Shown piece after piece: positions 1 through 13,023 of a stretch of DNA of 46,846 nucleotides (position 1 is its first letter; every line of letters starts with the position of its first letter). The stretch covers positions 1-46,846 of IMG/VR virus record IMGVR_UViG_3300028615_000105. One strand, given 5' to 3'. The notes under the pieces were generated by a model. It did no database searches and had not been told where the DNA came from. It was given only the letters and a program-made list of their open reading frames with translations. A program made the position numbers and the translations under genes. The DNA is from a virus.

Positions 1-1392
1 ACTGTCATATCCAACTGCGCAAAATAAAGACAGTTCAGAACTCCATGCTATGCTATATAAATAACCTGACACACCACTTGTTCTTGAAGTCCATGTTGAC
101 GAATCTGAACTTGTAATTATAGTTCCTGTGTCACCGACGGCAATAAAAATAGATCCATTAGAAGTAATTTTATTTAAATCTACATTTACTGGATTAGATA
201 CTTCAGACCAACTTGGTGATCCTCCTGACCAGTTTGGAAGTTCTGAATATGGACATCTTAATATGTAAGAGTCTCCAGTTTCAGCATCTCCTACAGCGAC
301 CCACCATCCACCATTAATATTTTTATCAAAACATACAGAATTTAAGCTAACGTTTTTATCTGGGACATTGGCTCTTACCCAAAAAACCCCATCTCTACTA
401 CCATATATTTGCGCTTCTGCTCCAGCATAAAAACCAACAGCACAAAAAAATTGCTGGTCATGTGTTGAATCTACATAATATAATCCCGGTGCAACATCTT
501 TTAGATCTGAACCATCTATATCAGTATATCTGTGCGGCCAATTTGCCATAGCTGTTTTTGCCAATTCGTCTTTTGATATATGTATATCGGCTATATCTGG
601 ATACGAAATCAAAGCAGTTTGTCCACTGGTGTCAAATGTACTAGGCGTTCCACCGTTACCAGTTACAACACCAGCAAAAAAGAAATTTCCTGTTGAAATC
701 GGATTACCAGTTTCTCTTTTTACAGATATACCTACTAATTGAATTGTGTAATCCGAAGCAGTTGTTGATATTGTTGTTTGCCCAAGTGTTCCAGAAGTTG
801 TTATAGTATTATTTGGTGAACTATATGAAACCGTTGCTTCTTCAATTGCTATTGATTCAGATGTAGCGTTTTTAGCCGGAGATTTTTTAAATACTCTGAT
901 GGTTCTACCAGAACAATCTACACCAGATCCACAAATTGAATTTACATTAAATGTAATATCTGTTCCATTATCGGTTACACTTGTTGGGTCCGCTTCTTCA
1001 CCAACATCTTCTTGCCATTTTTGATATTCAGGATATCCGGTATCTTTGTTGATTTGTATTCCAACTGGTTTTAAGATAAAACCAGCCCCCACTTCATAAT
1101 TTACACCATTTGTATTTTCAAATGATGCTGATCTTGTAATGAGAGATAGATCCAGAATATTTCCTTGACCATCGTGAACATCACCTTTACCACTTGTCTT
1201 AAGTAATATTTGGACTTTATCTGCACCATCATTATCAAGTTGCATAATTTCGTCAAAGCTACCTTCATTATACAATCTTTCAATAGAATTTTGGTTTATT
1301 GTCCTAAGATAATCCAAAAACAAATCTTTAAAGTCGGTAATCCCCATTAATTTTTTCTGTACAATATTTGTAAATTGTTGACCTGTAGTCAT
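1..1392 (-). CDS. Tail fibre-like protein with beta-propeller-type repeats, partial at 3' end
   Basis: An open frame runs from an ATG at 1392 to the window edge without a stop, so about 464 N-terminal residues are seen and the C-terminus is missing. The start is supported by AGGAG seven bases upstream. The first 100 residues (MTTGQQFTNIVQ...) are helical and polar, as in an attachment domain. The middle is Thr/Ser/Asn-rich and beta-prone. From about residue 330 come repeated blades with FCAVGF, WVAVGD, FIAVGD and FCAVGY, each followed by a segment such as IYGSRDGVFW or IITSSDSSTW. This is the pattern of BNR/kelch-like beta-propeller repeats in phage fibres. It follows the gpI-like gene by 12 bases, the usual place for a tail fibre. 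The fibre role is inference from position and repeats. Confidence 0.75.
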   Translation of the reverse strand, partial: MTTGQQFTNIVQKKLMGITDFKDLFLDYLRTINQNSIERLYNEGSFDEIMQLDNDGADKVQILLKTSGKGDVHDGQGNILDLSLITRSASFENTNGVNYEVGAGFILKPVGIQINKDTGYPEYQKWQEDVGEEADPTSVTDNGTDITFNVNSICGSGVDCSGRTIRVFKKSPAKNATSESIAIEEATVSYSSPNNTITTSGTLGQTTISTTASDYTIQLVGISVKRETGNPISTGNFFFAGVVTGNGGTPSTFDTSGQTALISYPDIADIHISKDELAKTAMANWPHRYTDIDGSDLKDVAPGLYYVDSTHDQQFFCAVGFYAGAEAQIYGSRDGVFWVRANVPDKNVSLNSVCFDKNINGGWWVAVGDAETGDSYILRCPYSELPNWSGGSPSWSEVSNPVNVDLNKITSNGSIFIAVGDTGTIITSSDSSTWTSRTSGVSGYLYSIAWSSELSLFCAVGYDS

Positions 1393-1404
1393 AATAAACT
1401 CCTA

Positions 1405-2658
1405 TTAATTTATGTCTATAAAATCTGTTTCTAACGGCAATTCAAAAATTTCAACTTCGTCTATATAAATTTTCATATTTGTAACCCTAAAACCAGTTTT
1501 ACCACTATTAATTGTTAATGATGTATCTATGTGGCTTAGATATTCAACAGAATCTATAAAAAACTTTATTTCTTTTGTATCATTTATATTAGTACACGTT
1601 ACACGAAACATATACCATACATTTTCAAACAATTGAAGATTGATAGTATCTGAATCAATCGTTGTAACAATTCCATCTTTTACTTTTCTAATATGTATAT
1701 CAGTTGTAATTCCACCATAAGGATATATTCTTATGTAATAAAAATTATTTTCGTCAACATAATTAAAAATCATTCTAAATATAGGTGAAGTTGCTGTTTC
1801 AAATTTTAAGCGTGTTGAAAAAACAATTTCATCCCAATCTGTATTAGGTACATTTGTATATGTAGATATCGTGCCAGAATCGTTACCGAAATTCATGTAT
1901 CCATTTAAAATATTCATTATTCCACCACCACTTAAGTCTGGCACTAACCATTGTGACGTATCATTTTCTATTGTAAATAGATCTAAGAAATCTATATAAC
2001 TTATAGTCACACGTTCACCGCTTGGACGTGTTAATTTTGCTAAATCAACAACTAAAGTTCTGTCAATATTACCATCGTCAACAATTCTAATTTCATAATT
2101 TTTTTCCACATAGCCTGGAGCCCCGGGTAATGATAACATCCATGGATCTCTGCCTTGATTATCTTCACTCAACACTGTTTCTTCAACAATAAATTTGAAA
2201 TCAAACCAATTCCATATTCTAAGCCTTGATCCTGTTGCAAGCTGTAACACATCTTTTATTGCGTCCTCAACACCACGTTTTTTCCAGAATGGAATTGATG
2301 CAGAAATTAACCTTCTAAGCGTTAAATTGTCTAAACCATTAGTTATACTATCTAATTCAGAAGTCCATCCAACAATCCATTTTAAGTATTTTAAATATTC
2401 ATTATCTATATCTGATATGGACCACAAACTTGTAAGATTTTTTATGTTTGCGTCTGTTGATTGCCATCTTTGTTGACAACCATTTAATAATCTTTCTAAC
2501 AATTTATTGCCATTATTTTGATCTTCTGTACGTATAATTTGAATAATAAATTTGTATATCGATAGTGACAATTCTTGTTGTATATCAACAGGAACATACC
2601 CGATCATTGGCGATGATTGGGTTATTAAAACATTTCCAACTGTATCCTGAATTGTCAT
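1405..2658 (-). CDS. Baseplate tail protein I (P2 gpI-like) with C-terminal lectin-like domain
   Basis: The N-terminal 230 residues match the phage tail protein I family. They include LLNGCQQRWQSTDANIKNL, then LKYLKWIVGWTSEL, and the conserved block LRRLISASIPFWKKRGVEDA, with a typical downstream RIWNWFDF. The protein helps join baseplate wedge and fibre in P2-like tails. From about residue 240 the sequence becomes beta-rich (MNFGNDSGTISTY, FYYIRIYPYG, VWYMFRVTC, KEIKFFIDSVEY, YIDEVEIFELP), which looks like a laminin-G/concanavalin-type jelly roll and could bind glycans. The gene overlaps the upstream gene by four bases (ATGA) and lies just after the gpJ-like module, as in P2. Family call strong; lectin-like domain moderate. 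Confidence 0.85.
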   Translation of the reverse strand: MTIQDTVGNVLITQSSPMIGYVPVDIQQELSLSIYKFIIQIIRTEDQNNGNKLLERLLNGCQQRWQSTDANIKNLTSLWSISDIDNEYLKYLKWIVGWTSELDSITNGLDNLTLRRLISASIPFWKKRGVEDAIKDVLQLATGSRLRIWNWFDFKFIVEETVLSEDNQGRDPWMLSLPGAPGYVEKNYEIRIVDDGNIDRTLVVDLAKLTRPSGERVTISYIDFLDLFTIENDTSQWLVPDLSGGGIMNILNGYMNFGNDSGTISTYTNVPNTDWDEIVFSTRLKFETATSPIFRMIFNYVDENNFYYIRIYPYGGITTDIHIRKVKDGIVTTIDSDTINLQLFENVWYMFRVTCTNINDTKEIKFFIDSVEYLSHIDTSLTINSGKTGFRVTNMKIYIDEVEIFELPLETDFIDIN

Positions 2659-8278: not shown

Positions 8279-9076
8279 TTACTGTAACAGATGAGACGTA
8301 TAACTTTCAGATCTGCTTTCAAAAAACCTTATTCTTAGTTGTTTTTGTGGTGTATTTTTTTTACCAAATGCTGTTTTTAATGGAACAGATGTTTGTTTTA
8401 CTTCTTGATTTCTAATACCTTCTATAGAAGGTAATTTTACTATATTTCCTGGTTGTAATCGCTGATATTGTGGGTGGTTTTTGCGAATTATATCGCCTAA
8501 TAATGGGTTTCCATACTCTTGATAAGCTAATAATTCATAATATTCTCGTTCTTTAACACGCGCATACCTAGTGTCTGTTTGTTGTTCATCGTCAAGACTA
8601 AATGTAACGAATTGTTTGAGCGATATGTCAACAGATATATCACGTAAACCACCAAAAAAATCAGGTCGTCCGTACTTTTGAGACAAACCAGTGATTACAC
8701 AATTCATATTTATATGTCCATCGCCAACAGACAATTGTAAAATTGGTGGTCTACGTACAGAAGAGTCGATTCTTATCCATGATTCTAATTTTTCTAGTTT
8801 ATCTTTTGGCGAATCATCAAGGGAGTGGTTTCTAAAAAGACGTGCTGTAAACGCAATTTGATCTGATTGACCTTGTAAAAACTGCATTATTGGATTTTGT
8901 CTGTTTAATGATGTAAATTCGCCCCATGTCGAGTTAACTTCTTTAGTCAAACCTTCTGGTTCAAACTGTCCTTGTAATTCTTCACCGGTGTCTAGATTGG
9001 TTAAAATCCAAACCTTCATATTTGGAATGAGATTTGATGCTAATGATGCGCCTACTCCAATTAAACTAGCAACCAT
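8279..9076 (-). CDS. LysM-containing tail/CIS tube protein
   Basis: 265 residues. The N-terminal part (MKVWILTNLDTGEELQGQFE, then EVNSTWGEF) resembles the contractile injection system tube/adaptor family. Near residues 180-220 a LysM-like segment (ELLAYQEYGNPLLGDIIRKN, then GNIVKLPSI) is visible. Proteins of this kind (T4 gp53/P2 gpX-like; eCIS Afp7-like) sit between tube end and hub. Start ATG overlaps the tape-measure stop (TAATG) and has GGAGG seven bases upstream. The order tape measure, LysM protein, hub, spike is typical. Confidence 0.82.
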   Translation of the reverse strand: MVASLIGVGASLASNLIPNMKVWILTNLDTGEELQGQFEPEGLTKEVNSTWGEFTSLNRQNPIMQFLQGQSDQIAFTARLFRNHSLDDSPKDKLEKLESWIRIDSSVRRPPILQLSVGDGHINMNCVITGLSQKYGRPDFFGGLRDISVDISLKQFVTFSLDDEQQTDTRYARVKEREYYELLAYQEYGNPLLGDIIRKNHPQYQRLQPGNIVKLPSIEGIRNQEVKQTSVPLKTAFGKKNTPQKQLRIRFFESRSESYTSHLLQ

Positions 9077-11469
9077 TATACACCTCCAACCGGAACAGCG
9101 CCGTGTTCTGCTGAAATTCTACGTTGCCATGGTGTTGCTTTGAATCCAGATCGTTCACTCACTTCTTGTCTATGACGTTGTGTTGCTTTAGCTACTGTTT
9201 TTCCATCAACACACATTTTGCTTTCAACATTTATATCTTTTGGCATATTTGCACCAACAGCATTCCCAACCTTTTCAGCCATTGAATCAGCAGATTTTGG
9301 ATCAATGGACATTAGTTTTTCTTCTTGATCCATACTCATATTTTCTAATTCTGTTGACATTAGTGCTGTACTTTCTTCTTCTATTTTTGGTGGTTTTTCA
9401 AAACCGGCTCTAATATCAAATTTCCCTGCTCCAAATTCTTTAAATGGCTTACTTATATCTTCAAGGCCAGCAAATTCAGCAATTGAACCAATTATTCCAG
9501 ACACCCATTTTATGGCATTTACAACACTTTCCACAACAGCCATAATAATATTTGTTACAACTCTTATCGTGCCGCCTATTACAGCAAGTAATCCAGTAAA
9601 CAGCATTCCAATCCCTTGAACTAAAAAGCTAGCTGCTGTTCCTATTACTGTAAATATACCTATAAAAAGAGGTTTTAATGCGCCAATTGTCCTGATCATT
9701 CCTGATACATATGTTCCTATATCTTCTTTAATCCATCCAAATATTTCAATAATTTTGTCGCCCATTTCTCCGAATAAATTTGGTGCAAATTTAAACGCAT
9801 CTAAAAATGGATTAACAGCAGTTTCCATAATCCAGTCAAAACCAGATTTAATCATGTCAAACATTCTTGAAAATGTATCTCCAACACTTTCGCCATCCTG
9901 TCTAAATAATAAAAATGCTGCACCAGCAGCAGCTATTACTGGCAATAAAACACTTCCAAAAACAGCACTAACAATTGTTCCAATTGCGCCAAAAGCAGGT
10001 ATAATTACAGAAGATATTATAAAACCTATACCACTAAGCGCAATCAAAACAGGAGCAATTGCACCTACAACTATAAAAATCATTGTAGCAATTTTCGAGA
10101 TCTGTTGTATCATTTCCGGAGATTGATTTCCAGTAAAGCTTGATATAGAATCAGTAATTGTATCACGCAATTTTTCCCAAGCATCTATTACAGTATCTAT
10201 ACCTGCTCTTATTCCCTTTGCAACTGCTACATTTGTTGCGCCAGCCTTTTTAGATGTTTCTTCTGTTAAACCTGTTTCTGTATTTAATTCTTGTAAAACA
10301 AGTACTGTGTTTGATAAATTGTCTGTAAAATTTTTAACTCCTTGTCTCATTGGCCCTAAAAACATCCCTGCTGTTTCCAAAACAAAACCTTCTGCAGCAG
10401 ATTTAAGCAAAGTAAATGAACCAGCAAGATTGTCTAGTCTTATTTCTGACATTCGTTTGGCTGATCCTTCTGCGTTATATAGCTCATCAGTTAATTTTTC
10501 TAATCTTCCAGCATCTATTGCCGTCATAACAGCGTTAACGGCCTTTTGTCCGCGTACTCCAAACAATTCTGAAATAGCTGTTGCTTGATCAAGAGGATCT
10601 TCAATTTCTTTTATTCCTTGAGATAATTGCTTAAATGTATCAATAATATCCGTTGTTCCTTTTTCTGTTTTTCTTATTGTTATATTGTATTTATTTAAAA
10701 GCTTTTCTCCTTCTCCTGTTGGTTTTAGCAATTTAATCATCGCTTGTGTGAACGATGTACCTCCTATAGATCCTTGAAGTCCAGCATCGCCAGCAGCACC
10801 AAGAACAGCTGCTAATTGTTCAAACTCAATATTCATCGATTTAGCTTGTGGGGCTGCGTATCGTAATGCTTCACCAAGTTGAGTTATATTTGTATTAGAT
10901 TTTGCTGATGTTAAAGCCAATACATCTGCTACACGTGCCGCATCTGATGCCGGCATATTCATAGATCTAAGTGCATTTGCAACTATATTAGCTGTTTCGC
11001 CTAATTCCATTCCATCTGCTGCTGCTGCATTAAGCAATGGTCCAATAGCAGATATTTGTTCTCGTACGCTAAAACCAGCCCTGGAAAGGAATTCCATTCC
11101 TTGACCGGCTTGTGTTGCTGAAAAGGCCGTTGTTGCACCTTGACGTTTTGCTTCTTGTGTTAATTGGGCCATTTCTTCTGCTGTTGCGCCTGTAATAGCA
11201 CGAATAGCAGACATTTGTTTTTCAAAATCTATACTCTGCTTTGTACCAAACCCAATTGCAGCAGTCATAGGTAATGCTGCAACACCCAACGATCTAGCAG
11301 ATCTAGACAGTTGATTCATCCCTTGACCAACACTTCTTGCTACACTAGTTATACCACTAAAAGTTTTTGAAAATAATTGAGATGCTTTACTTGCTTTTTG
11401 CATACCACGAATAGCGTTTTGATGATCAAACGATAAAATACCACCTAAACCTATTTTTTCAAATGCCAT
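9076..11469 (-). CDS. Tail tape measure protein
   Basis: 797 residues. The region of residues 75-330 contains the TP901-type tape-measure core: FEKQMSAIRAITGATAEEMA, GATTAFSATQAGQGMEFLSR, and later ELFGVRGQKAVNAV. Three or more strongly hydrophobic segments lie at about residues 460-525 and 600-645. The C-terminus is polar. The product fills the tail lumen, fixes tail length and later leaves with the DNA. It follows the chaperone frameshift cassette, the canonical position. GGAG lies seven bases before the ATG. By length the tail would be moderate (roughly 1.5 angstrom per residue in other phages), which is an estimate from family knowledge. Confidence 0.93.
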   Translation of the reverse strand: MAFEKIGLGGILSFDHQNAIRGMQKASKASQLFSKTFSGITSVARSVGQGMNQLSRSARSLGVAALPMTAAIGFGTKQSIDFEKQMSAIRAITGATAEEMAQLTQEAKRQGATTAFSATQAGQGMEFLSRAGFSVREQISAIGPLLNAAAADGMELGETANIVANALRSMNMPASDAARVADVLALTSAKSNTNITQLGEALRYAAPQAKSMNIEFEQLAAVLGAAGDAGLQGSIGGTSFTQAMIKLLKPTGEGEKLLNKYNITIRKTEKGTTDIIDTFKQLSQGIKEIEDPLDQATAISELFGVRGQKAVNAVMTAIDAGRLEKLTDELYNAEGSAKRMSEIRLDNLAGSFTLLKSAAEGFVLETAGMFLGPMRQGVKNFTDNLSNTVLVLQELNTETGLTEETSKKAGATNVAVAKGIRAGIDTVIDAWEKLRDTITDSISSFTGNQSPEMIQQISKIATMIFIVVGAIAPVLIALSGIGFIISSVIIPAFGAIGTIVSAVFGSVLLPVIAAAGAAFLLFRQDGESVGDTFSRMFDMIKSGFDWIMETAVNPFLDAFKFAPNLFGEMGDKIIEIFGWIKEDIGTYVSGMIRTIGALKPLFIGIFTVIGTAASFLVQGIGMLFTGLLAVIGGTIRVVTNIIMAVVESVVNAIKWVSGIIGSIAEFAGLEDISKPFKEFGAGKFDIRAGFEKPPKIEEESTALMSTELENMSMDQEEKLMSIDPKSADSMAEKVGNAVGANMPKDINVESKMCVDGKTVAKATQRHRQEVSERSGFKATPWQRRISAEHGAVPVGGV

Positions 11470-11472
11470 TCG

Positions 11473-11736
11473 TTATCTCCGTCGTCTCATCCTATTTGAT
11501 CGTTTACCACGATATTTCTTGATTCCTCCTTGTGAATCTTTTATTGATTTATTTTCTTTCTTTTTTTGTTCATATATTCTTTTTATGTGCCACTGTCTTT
11601 CTTCATATTCTAAATCTTCTACATCACTATATGTAAAACCTCCTTCAGAAAAATAGTATAAGCTAAATATTTCTTCCCGTAACTCGTTTACATCTGTTAT
11701 CGGGAAGAATGACCGAAAAAATTCTGATACTCCCAT
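11473..11736 (-). CDS. Tail assembly chaperone frameshift extension (T part of G-T fusion)
   Basis: This frame lies -1 relative to the upstream chaperone and overlaps its 3' end by 40 bases. The ATG at 11736 has no Shine-Dalgarno, and the first seven codons overlap the chaperone frame. I infer that it is mainly translated by a -1 slip at 11715-11721, entering at codon CGG (RSFFPITDVNELREE...), which adds 80 residues. The extension is charged: an acidic/aromatic first half with EEIFSLYYFSEGGFTY, then a very basic tail KKENKSIKDSQGG...RSNRMRRRR. In lambda (G/GT) and P2 (E/E') the equivalent extension recruits the tape measure protein, whose gene begins four bases downstream of this stop. Confidence 0.8.
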   Translation of the reverse strand: MGVSEFFRSFFPITDVNELREEIFSLYYFSEGGFTYSDVEDLEYEERQWHIKRIYEQKKKENKSIKDSQGGIKKYRGKRSNRMRRRR

Positions 11737-12533
11737 CTAATAGGTTGTACAAATTTTCTATTTCCACTCCTGTTGTGTTGACAAAGATCTTCTGGATACA
11801 CTCCTTCAACGCTCATATTTGGGCCAATAAATCTGTCATCAATTTCAGACACAAGGTTTTCAAAATCTGGTTTTGACAAATCATCAAGTTCATGCTGTGC
11901 CAATGCAATTGGTTCTTGACTGTCATTTAATCCAATAATTGAATTGATAAGAATAGCGATTTTAACATCAGCACTATTCAAATTTCCACTATTTCTCTCA
12001 AGAACTTCCCATTTAGGATAACTAAGTTGAAATTTTTCAACCATATTTCCACGTAATTCAATAGGATCTTCTAATTCATATTGCCAAATCATATCCTCTA
12101 TATTGTTTACATACACAACATCTAATGTTGATAAATCTGCAACATATTTAAATTCTGCATCACATCCAGGAAACGGACAATTAATTTGAAGCTTCAAATT
12201 TTTGCCCATTGTTTTCATTCTCAAAAGGGAATAAACATAAAAAACGTCTCCAAAATACATCATGGATACAACTAGTTTTTTCTCTTTATCACTTAGAGAA
12301 TCCATGTTATGTGGGCCCAATTTTTCACACATGTTTGAAACAATAATGCTTACATGTTTCGGCATTTCAGTAGGACAATTTGCGAATTTTTTCCCCAATT
12401 CTCTTTCGTCTTTTGTTCTCCATTTTTTAGTAACAATATCTTTTGTAATTTTGCCATCAGAATCTTGAATTCCAATTGGCAATTGATCTCCGTATTCACC
12501 AAGTGTTGTTTTTATTCTTTTTTCATTTTCCAT
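11697..12533 (-). CDS. Tail assembly chaperone, T4 gp26-like
   Basis: 278 residues from the ATG at 12533. A longer frame opening with TTG at 12545 would place the start inside GGAGG, which instead serves as the Shine-Dalgarno five bases before this ATG. The region INCPFPGCDAEFKYVADL has a CxxxxC pair seen in the T4 gp26-like baseplate/assembly-chaperone family. Other parts are helical (SDKEKKLVVSMMYFGDVFYV). Located between tail tube and tape measure, it fits the tail assembly chaperone. Codons 272-273 (TTT TTC) form the frameshift site. Normal termination follows five codons later; frameshifting gives a predicted 353-residue fusion. Function by position and frameshift is strong; family name is moderate. 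Confidence 0.8.
   Translation of the reverse strand: MENEKRIKTTLGEYGDQLPIGIQDSDGKITKDIVTKKWRTKDERELGKKFANCPTEMPKHVSIIVSNMCEKLGPHNMDSLSDKEKKLVVSMMYFGDVFYVYSLLRMKTMGKNLKLQINCPFPGCDAEFKYVADLSTLDVVYVNNIEDMIWQYELEDPIELRGNMVEKFQLSYPKWEVLERNSGNLNSADVKIAILINSIIGLNDSQEPIALAQHELDDLSKPDFENLVSEIDDRFIGPNMSVEGVYPEDLCQHNRSGNRKFVQPIRWEYQNFFGHSSR
11715..11721 (-). promoter_or_regulatory. Programmed -1 ribosomal frameshift slippery site T TTT TTC
   Basis: The heptamer TTTTTTC on the minus strand fits X XXY YYZ exactly in the zero frame of the chaperone (AAT TTT TTC GGT). Slipping back one base makes the next codon CGG and continues in the downstream frame for 80 residues. The position, near the end of the chaperone gene before the tape measure gene, is the classic tail-phage arrangement. 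I did not find a clear downstream pseudoknot by eye; some phage sites work without one. Confidence 0.85.
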
Positions 12534-12585: not shown

Positions 12586-13023
12586 TTAGATAGGTATAAC
12601 GTCATCAGCAGACATTACCCATTCTACATTTGCCATTTCACCTTCATTGGCTTTTTCTAGATCTGGCAAATTCCTTTGTTTTGGAAAGACACCGGACAAA
12701 GTATATCCTCTTGATACATTCCCTGAAATAGATTGGTGGGTAAGCGTACAAGGCTTTTTATAAGTTGGAGATACTGGATCTTGAGATTCCCTAAACCACA
12801 ATTCTAAAGCCGCTTGTTCAGAAAGATGGTGCATAGGAACCATAATAGTAAATTCTGTTGCGTTTCTATTACCACCACTTGCAACCGTTCTGTCTGGCAG
12901 TTCGGTTGTTTGCAATTCATCTTCGATTCCTGATATCTCAACAGCAGTGATCGGAATTAATCCGACAATTTGTAATACATATTTGTTGACCGGCATATGG
13001 TCTGCTAAAATTTCACCTTTCAC
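12586..13023 (-). CDS. Tail tube protein
   Basis: 145 residues, starting with GTG at 13023 behind AGGAGG five bases upstream. Segments PVNKYVLQIVGLIPITAVEIS, TELPDRTVASGGNRNATEFT, then HHLSEQAALELWFRESQDP match the tube/gp19-like pattern, where a 'FTITVPMH...' strand precedes a helix. The product would form hexameric rings stacked inside the sheath. It lies between sheath and chaperone genes, as expected. The alternative is another tube-like structural protein; only one such gene is seen here. Confidence 0.82.
   Translation of the reverse strand: MKGEILADHMPVNKYVLQIVGLIPITAVEISGIEDELQTTELPDRTVASGGNRNATEFTIMVPMHHLSEQAALELWFRESQDPVSPTYKKPCTLTHQSISGNVSRGYTLSGVFPKQRNLPDLEKANEGEMANVEWVMSADDVIPI

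Follow-up and report, generated by a model that had tools for sequence, protein, structure and literature searches.

The locus examined here raises the question of whether a phage tail gene that ends in a run of thymines, with a second open frame overlapping its end, encodes one product or two, and by what means the second would be made. The DNA analysed as a whole, hereafter the window, is a 46.8-kb virus record (46,846 nucleotides) that carries a contractile-tail module on its minus strand, in the order tail sheath, small ORF, putative tail tube, chaperone gene and tape measure. The chaperone gene is thus placed between the tail tube and tape measure genes. The tape measure gene (9076–11469, minus strand), which adjoins its 3′ side, was identified by PF10145 (E 1.9e-42) and by PHROG tape measure families; the putative tail tube gene (12586–13023, minus strand), which adjoins its 5′ side, is a weak assignment made from gene position and a PF06841 match at E 0.09. 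As developed below, the sequence comparisons leave us highly confident that this locus encodes both tail assembly chaperones (TAC-N and TAC-NC) of a contractile-tailed phage through a −1 frameshift.

The chaperone coding sequence spans 12533–11700 and encodes 278 amino acids; with its TAA codon at 11699–11697, the gene for the short form (TAC-N) covers 11697–12533 of the minus strand. Read directly on that strand, its 3′ end is CAG AAT TTT TTC GGT CAT TCT TCC CGA TAA. The first-pass annotation of this DNA had proposed a programmed −1 frameshift at this point, and the reading bore out its layout: the slippery heptamer T_TTT_TTC lies at 11721–11715 in the zero-frame X_XXY_YYZ register, and the overlapping frame is exactly −1, being open for 82 codons from the heptamer. 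This −1 extension, which includes the two Phe codons and ends with a stop codon at 11475–11473, occupies 11473–11721 of the minus strand. The recomputed sizes of the two products were likewise those proposed, 278 residues for the short protein and 353 (271 + 82) for the fusion (TAC-NC). The −1 frame does reach the tape measure gene as described, but the gap before the tape measure ATG at 11469 is of 3 bases and not of 4. As the window is AT-rich (GC3 0.18), the heptamer by itself is unsurprising there, and the case for a frameshift site was therefore built on a comparison across loci.

A direct search with the chaperone returned no match among viral contigs and only the Melnitz phages among named phages, and the tube protein was therefore taken as bait. 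With this bait 18 IMG/VR loci were gathered, and 24 through the chaperone alignment, with many contigs in common; after removal of duplicates, the compared set comprised 24 loci, the window and 23 relatives. Searches with the tail sheath and with a divergent chaperone found no named phage, and no relative turned up when bacterial genomes were scanned. Within the set, tube identity goes down to 51% and chaperone identity to the window ranges from 28 to 56%. NNT TTT TTC or NNT TTT TTT is present at the same C-terminal Phe-Phe in all 24 loci, the register of the heptamer having been verified by script at each of them, and in all 24 the −1 frame is open for 62–82 codons and ends just before the tape measure gene. 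The check on homologous phages suggested by the first-pass annotation thus came out in its favour, the heptamer being found in 23 of 23 relatives, none of which has a −1-frame stop shortly after it. The heptamer is kept although GC3 rises to 0.93 in the set, where TTT and NNT codons are rare. The product of codon-usage probabilities for the heptamer over the 24 loci gives a nominal log10 P of −32, a value that treats the loci as independent and overstates the strength of the result because they are related; since chaperone identity to the window is so low, neutral retention of the heptamer is implausible.

The −1 extensions of the set form a conserved family, and purifying selection acts on them: in close pairs, most differences past the zero-frame stop fall on the third base of −1-frame codons, and dN/dS there is 0.07–0.22 where synonymous sites are unsaturated. 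The model of the extension is helical (pLDDT 80). Its richness in Arg and Lys, which had been described as unusual, amounts to 24% K+R and is common to the relatives. No consistent Pfam match was obtained for it, and no Foldseek match at E ≤ 0.001. A profile comparison with the gp51 region of T4-like phages gave an E value of 5.8e-6 (probability 85%), and phrog_634 was matched by one of 15 members (E 1.2e-5). By these matches, the extension of the clade is a distant relative of that gp51 region.

The short form was said to be a T4 gp26-like chaperone with a CxxxxC pair, and both descriptions held. PF12322 (T4_baseplate, gp26) matches the window protein at E 6.6e-6 with 26.4 bits, above the curated cut-off of 24.5, and is matched at E ≤ 0.1 by all 15 sequences scanned (best E 3e-13); phrog_150, a baseplate hub family, matches the window chaperone at E 6e-8. 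The chaperone model (pLDDT 91) matched gp26 and baseplate hub models in the viral structure library with E values down to 4.8e-16, while its best PDB match, the HK97 tail assembly chaperone 2ob9, was non-significant (E 0.19, probability 0.63). The cysteine pair is located at Cys119/Cys124. Most relatives carry a zinc-ribbon-like CPxC...CxxC; the window protein reads CPFPGC at residues 119–124 and has only one Cys of the second pair (251). In Leptospira phage LE4, and likewise in Myoviridae sp. ctgXL3, one protein was matched by the chaperone and another by the extension, the latter match being non-significant; this is what one would see if each half had been annotated there as an ORF of its own.

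We then considered stimulators of frameshifting. A hairpin is predicted downstream of the heptamer, the 5′ arm of which, TTCTTCCCG (11701–11709, minus strand), starts 5 nt past the heptamer, and the 3′ arm of which, CGGGAAGAA (11671–11679, minus strand), is separated from it by a 21-nt loop. Its energy in the window is −15.6 kcal/mol, with a z score of −3.9 against synonymous shuffles in which the doubly coding overlap was held fixed and downstream codons were swapped synonymously. Over the 24 loci the same test gave a mean z of −1.54 (Stouffer −7.5), against a mean z of −0.17 at 480 control positions within the chaperone and tape measure genes; no draw of 24 controls out of 20,000 reached −1.54. 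The hairpin uses another 3′ partner in three loci (L012, L034, L043) and is wholly different in a fourth (L014), and several relatives (L003, L004, L017, L018, L019) show no excess stability. RNAalifold found no consensus hairpin, and column covariation at fixed register was at shuffle level (81.5% paired, 80.5% in shuffles), the sole pair kept at all loci being 16/48 (UA, CG, UG); the hairpin claim therefore depends on the comparison with synonymous shuffles and on the control positions, which make the hairpin likely. The signal for an upstream Shine-Dalgarno-like stimulator was weak (Stouffer −2.5).

These features make it very likely, as judged from sequence, that the 278-residue chaperone ends in a programmed −1 frameshift site that yields the 353-residue fusion. 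Most ribosomes would stop at 11697 and release the short form. In a minority, which is the efficiency that we infer for the slip, the P- and A-site tRNAs paired with TTT TTC would move back together by one base onto TTT TTT, a movement probably aided by the hairpin, the stem of which would begin about 5 nt downstream of the heptamer; these ribosomes would read 80 more codons and complete the fusion. If the analogy with lambda gpG/gpGT holds, the short form may cover the tape measure protein in many copies, and the long form, which is rarer, may use its basic, helical extension to recruit tube subunits.

The main alternative makes the −1 ORF an overlapping gene of its own, translated by coupled re-initiation from the ATG at 11736, the heptamer being incidental. 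Such an ATG does exist in the window: it lies at 11734–11736 of the minus strand, 15 nt upstream of the heptamer, and is the sole −1-frame start codon upstream of it. The downstream part is moreover annotated as a separate gp51 in T4-like records, and in Vibrio phage D528 the heptamer is absent and stop and start overlap as TAATG. Against this, the ATG is not conserved and, as the first-pass annotation had noted, no Shine-Dalgarno precedes it (acaacctattagATG), while the chaperone ATG has ttggaggtaagtATG. In 13 of the 24 loci the open −1 frame has no ATG, GTG or TTG up to and including the heptamer, and the nine heptamer-bearing T4-like phages (9/9) have no start codon there either, although the FFRxFFP segment of this frame is conserved in the clade; in those 13 loci, a ribosome initiating independently at a usual start codon there could not produce the conserved segment. 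A separate gene would also leave unexplained why NNT TTT is retained against codon usage, and we regard this alternative as improbable.

Slippage of the RNA polymerase on the T run, which would produce a mixed mRNA population in place of a shift by the ribosome, is more improbable still. The site is a homopolymer run of 6–8 T, as this mechanism would have it, but in most loci just 6 T are followed by C, a rather short run for transcriptional slippage in bacteria; the retained X_XXY_YYZ phase and the hairpin at ribosomal spacing also speak for the ribosome. A chance overlap or a sequencing error was entertained too, the heptamer being not improbable in the AT-rich window (GC3 0.18) taken alone; the same arrangement on separate contigs in 24 of 24 loci rules this out, leaving it a negligible probability.

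The gp26 and gp51 genes of T4-like phages were compared as well. Among the 12 named phages in which a gp26-like gene was examined, T_TTT_TT[C/T] ends this gene in nine (Melnitz, S-SM1, OC, Milchi, IG49, EniLVp02, MED4-213, phi-ST2 and PX29), and in these nine the −1 frame is free of stops through the next annotated small ORF, which is often gp51 or else hypothetical. The gp51 gene ('baseplate hub assembly catalyst') or its equivalent is annotated from an internal −1-frame codon at L044–L048, L052–L054 and L020. Phage T2 (L049) has TTC TTT at the end of gp26 and no heptamer. Its gp51, encoded at 716–1465 (minus) of L049 on the strand opposite gp26, is a fused paralogue of full length that comprises a gp26-like part and the extension, and it can be aligned with the frameshift fusions over almost its entire length (E 8e-17). 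CBA120 and D528 (L050, L051) have an extension-like −1 frame and no standard heptamer; in D528, the stop/start overlap at the end of the gp26-like gene could permit re-initiation. We lean towards the view that gp26 and gp51 were ancestrally one frameshifted chaperone gene, in T4-like phages as in the clade, that the stand-alone gp51 of cyanophages and Vibrio phages is a mis-annotated C-terminal half, and that the two-gene state of T2/T4 reflects a later duplication which made frameshifting dispensable. Part of this one-gene reading may already be stated by Vladimirov et al. (2022), a work on T4-like chaperones that, by its title, has them arise through some other mechanism than frameshifting. 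The same work is cited in a 2025 paper as a source for poly-T signals of frameshifting in the TAC-N genes of T4-like phages (PMC12846349).

For the uncultivated phage clade, the annotation of the chaperone pair is settled by these results, where gene callers would split it, and for T4-like phages they offer a simple evolutionary reading in which gp26 and gp51 are the products of one frameshifted gene. Tail chaperones made by frameshifting are textbook material, with T4 noted as an exception (review PMC5009743). The kind of frameshift described here is thus already known and its mechanism is an ordinary one; what is new is its occurrence in this clade.

The analogy with lambda G/GT and P2 E/E′, drawn by the first-pass annotation, rests on gene position, on the two-frame layout and on the weak match to the HK97 chaperone fold. 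As in lambda gpG/gpGT, the gene lies between the tube and tape measure genes, the −1 shift is placed near the end of the short frame and the extension is read until just before the tape measure gene; unlike lambda, the slippery site of which is G_GGA_AAG, the window has T_TTT_TTC, and its gp26-like protein has about twice the length. P2 E/E′ shares a contractile tail and a poly-T heptamer (T_TTT_TTG in P2), whereas the match to Phage_TAC_7 is sub-threshold, at E 0.06 in the window and at best 0.014 in a relative. The T4-like gp26/gp51 genes of cyanophages, Melnitz, phi-ST2 and PX29 belong to the same Pfam family, with T_TTT_TT[C/T] at the C-terminal Phe-Phe and a distantly related −1 domain; they differ in that gp51 is annotated as a stand-alone ORF, and T2 differs in having no heptamer and a separate gp51 that is fused and of full length. 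Finally, a conserved −1 frame with GTTTTT has been reported in Vandenendeviridae, and the chaperone frameshift of Vandenendeviridae/Andersonviridae resembles the one proposed here in its conserved −1 frame, in the GTTTTT at the end of TAC-N and in its place upstream of the tape measure gene (PMC12846349).
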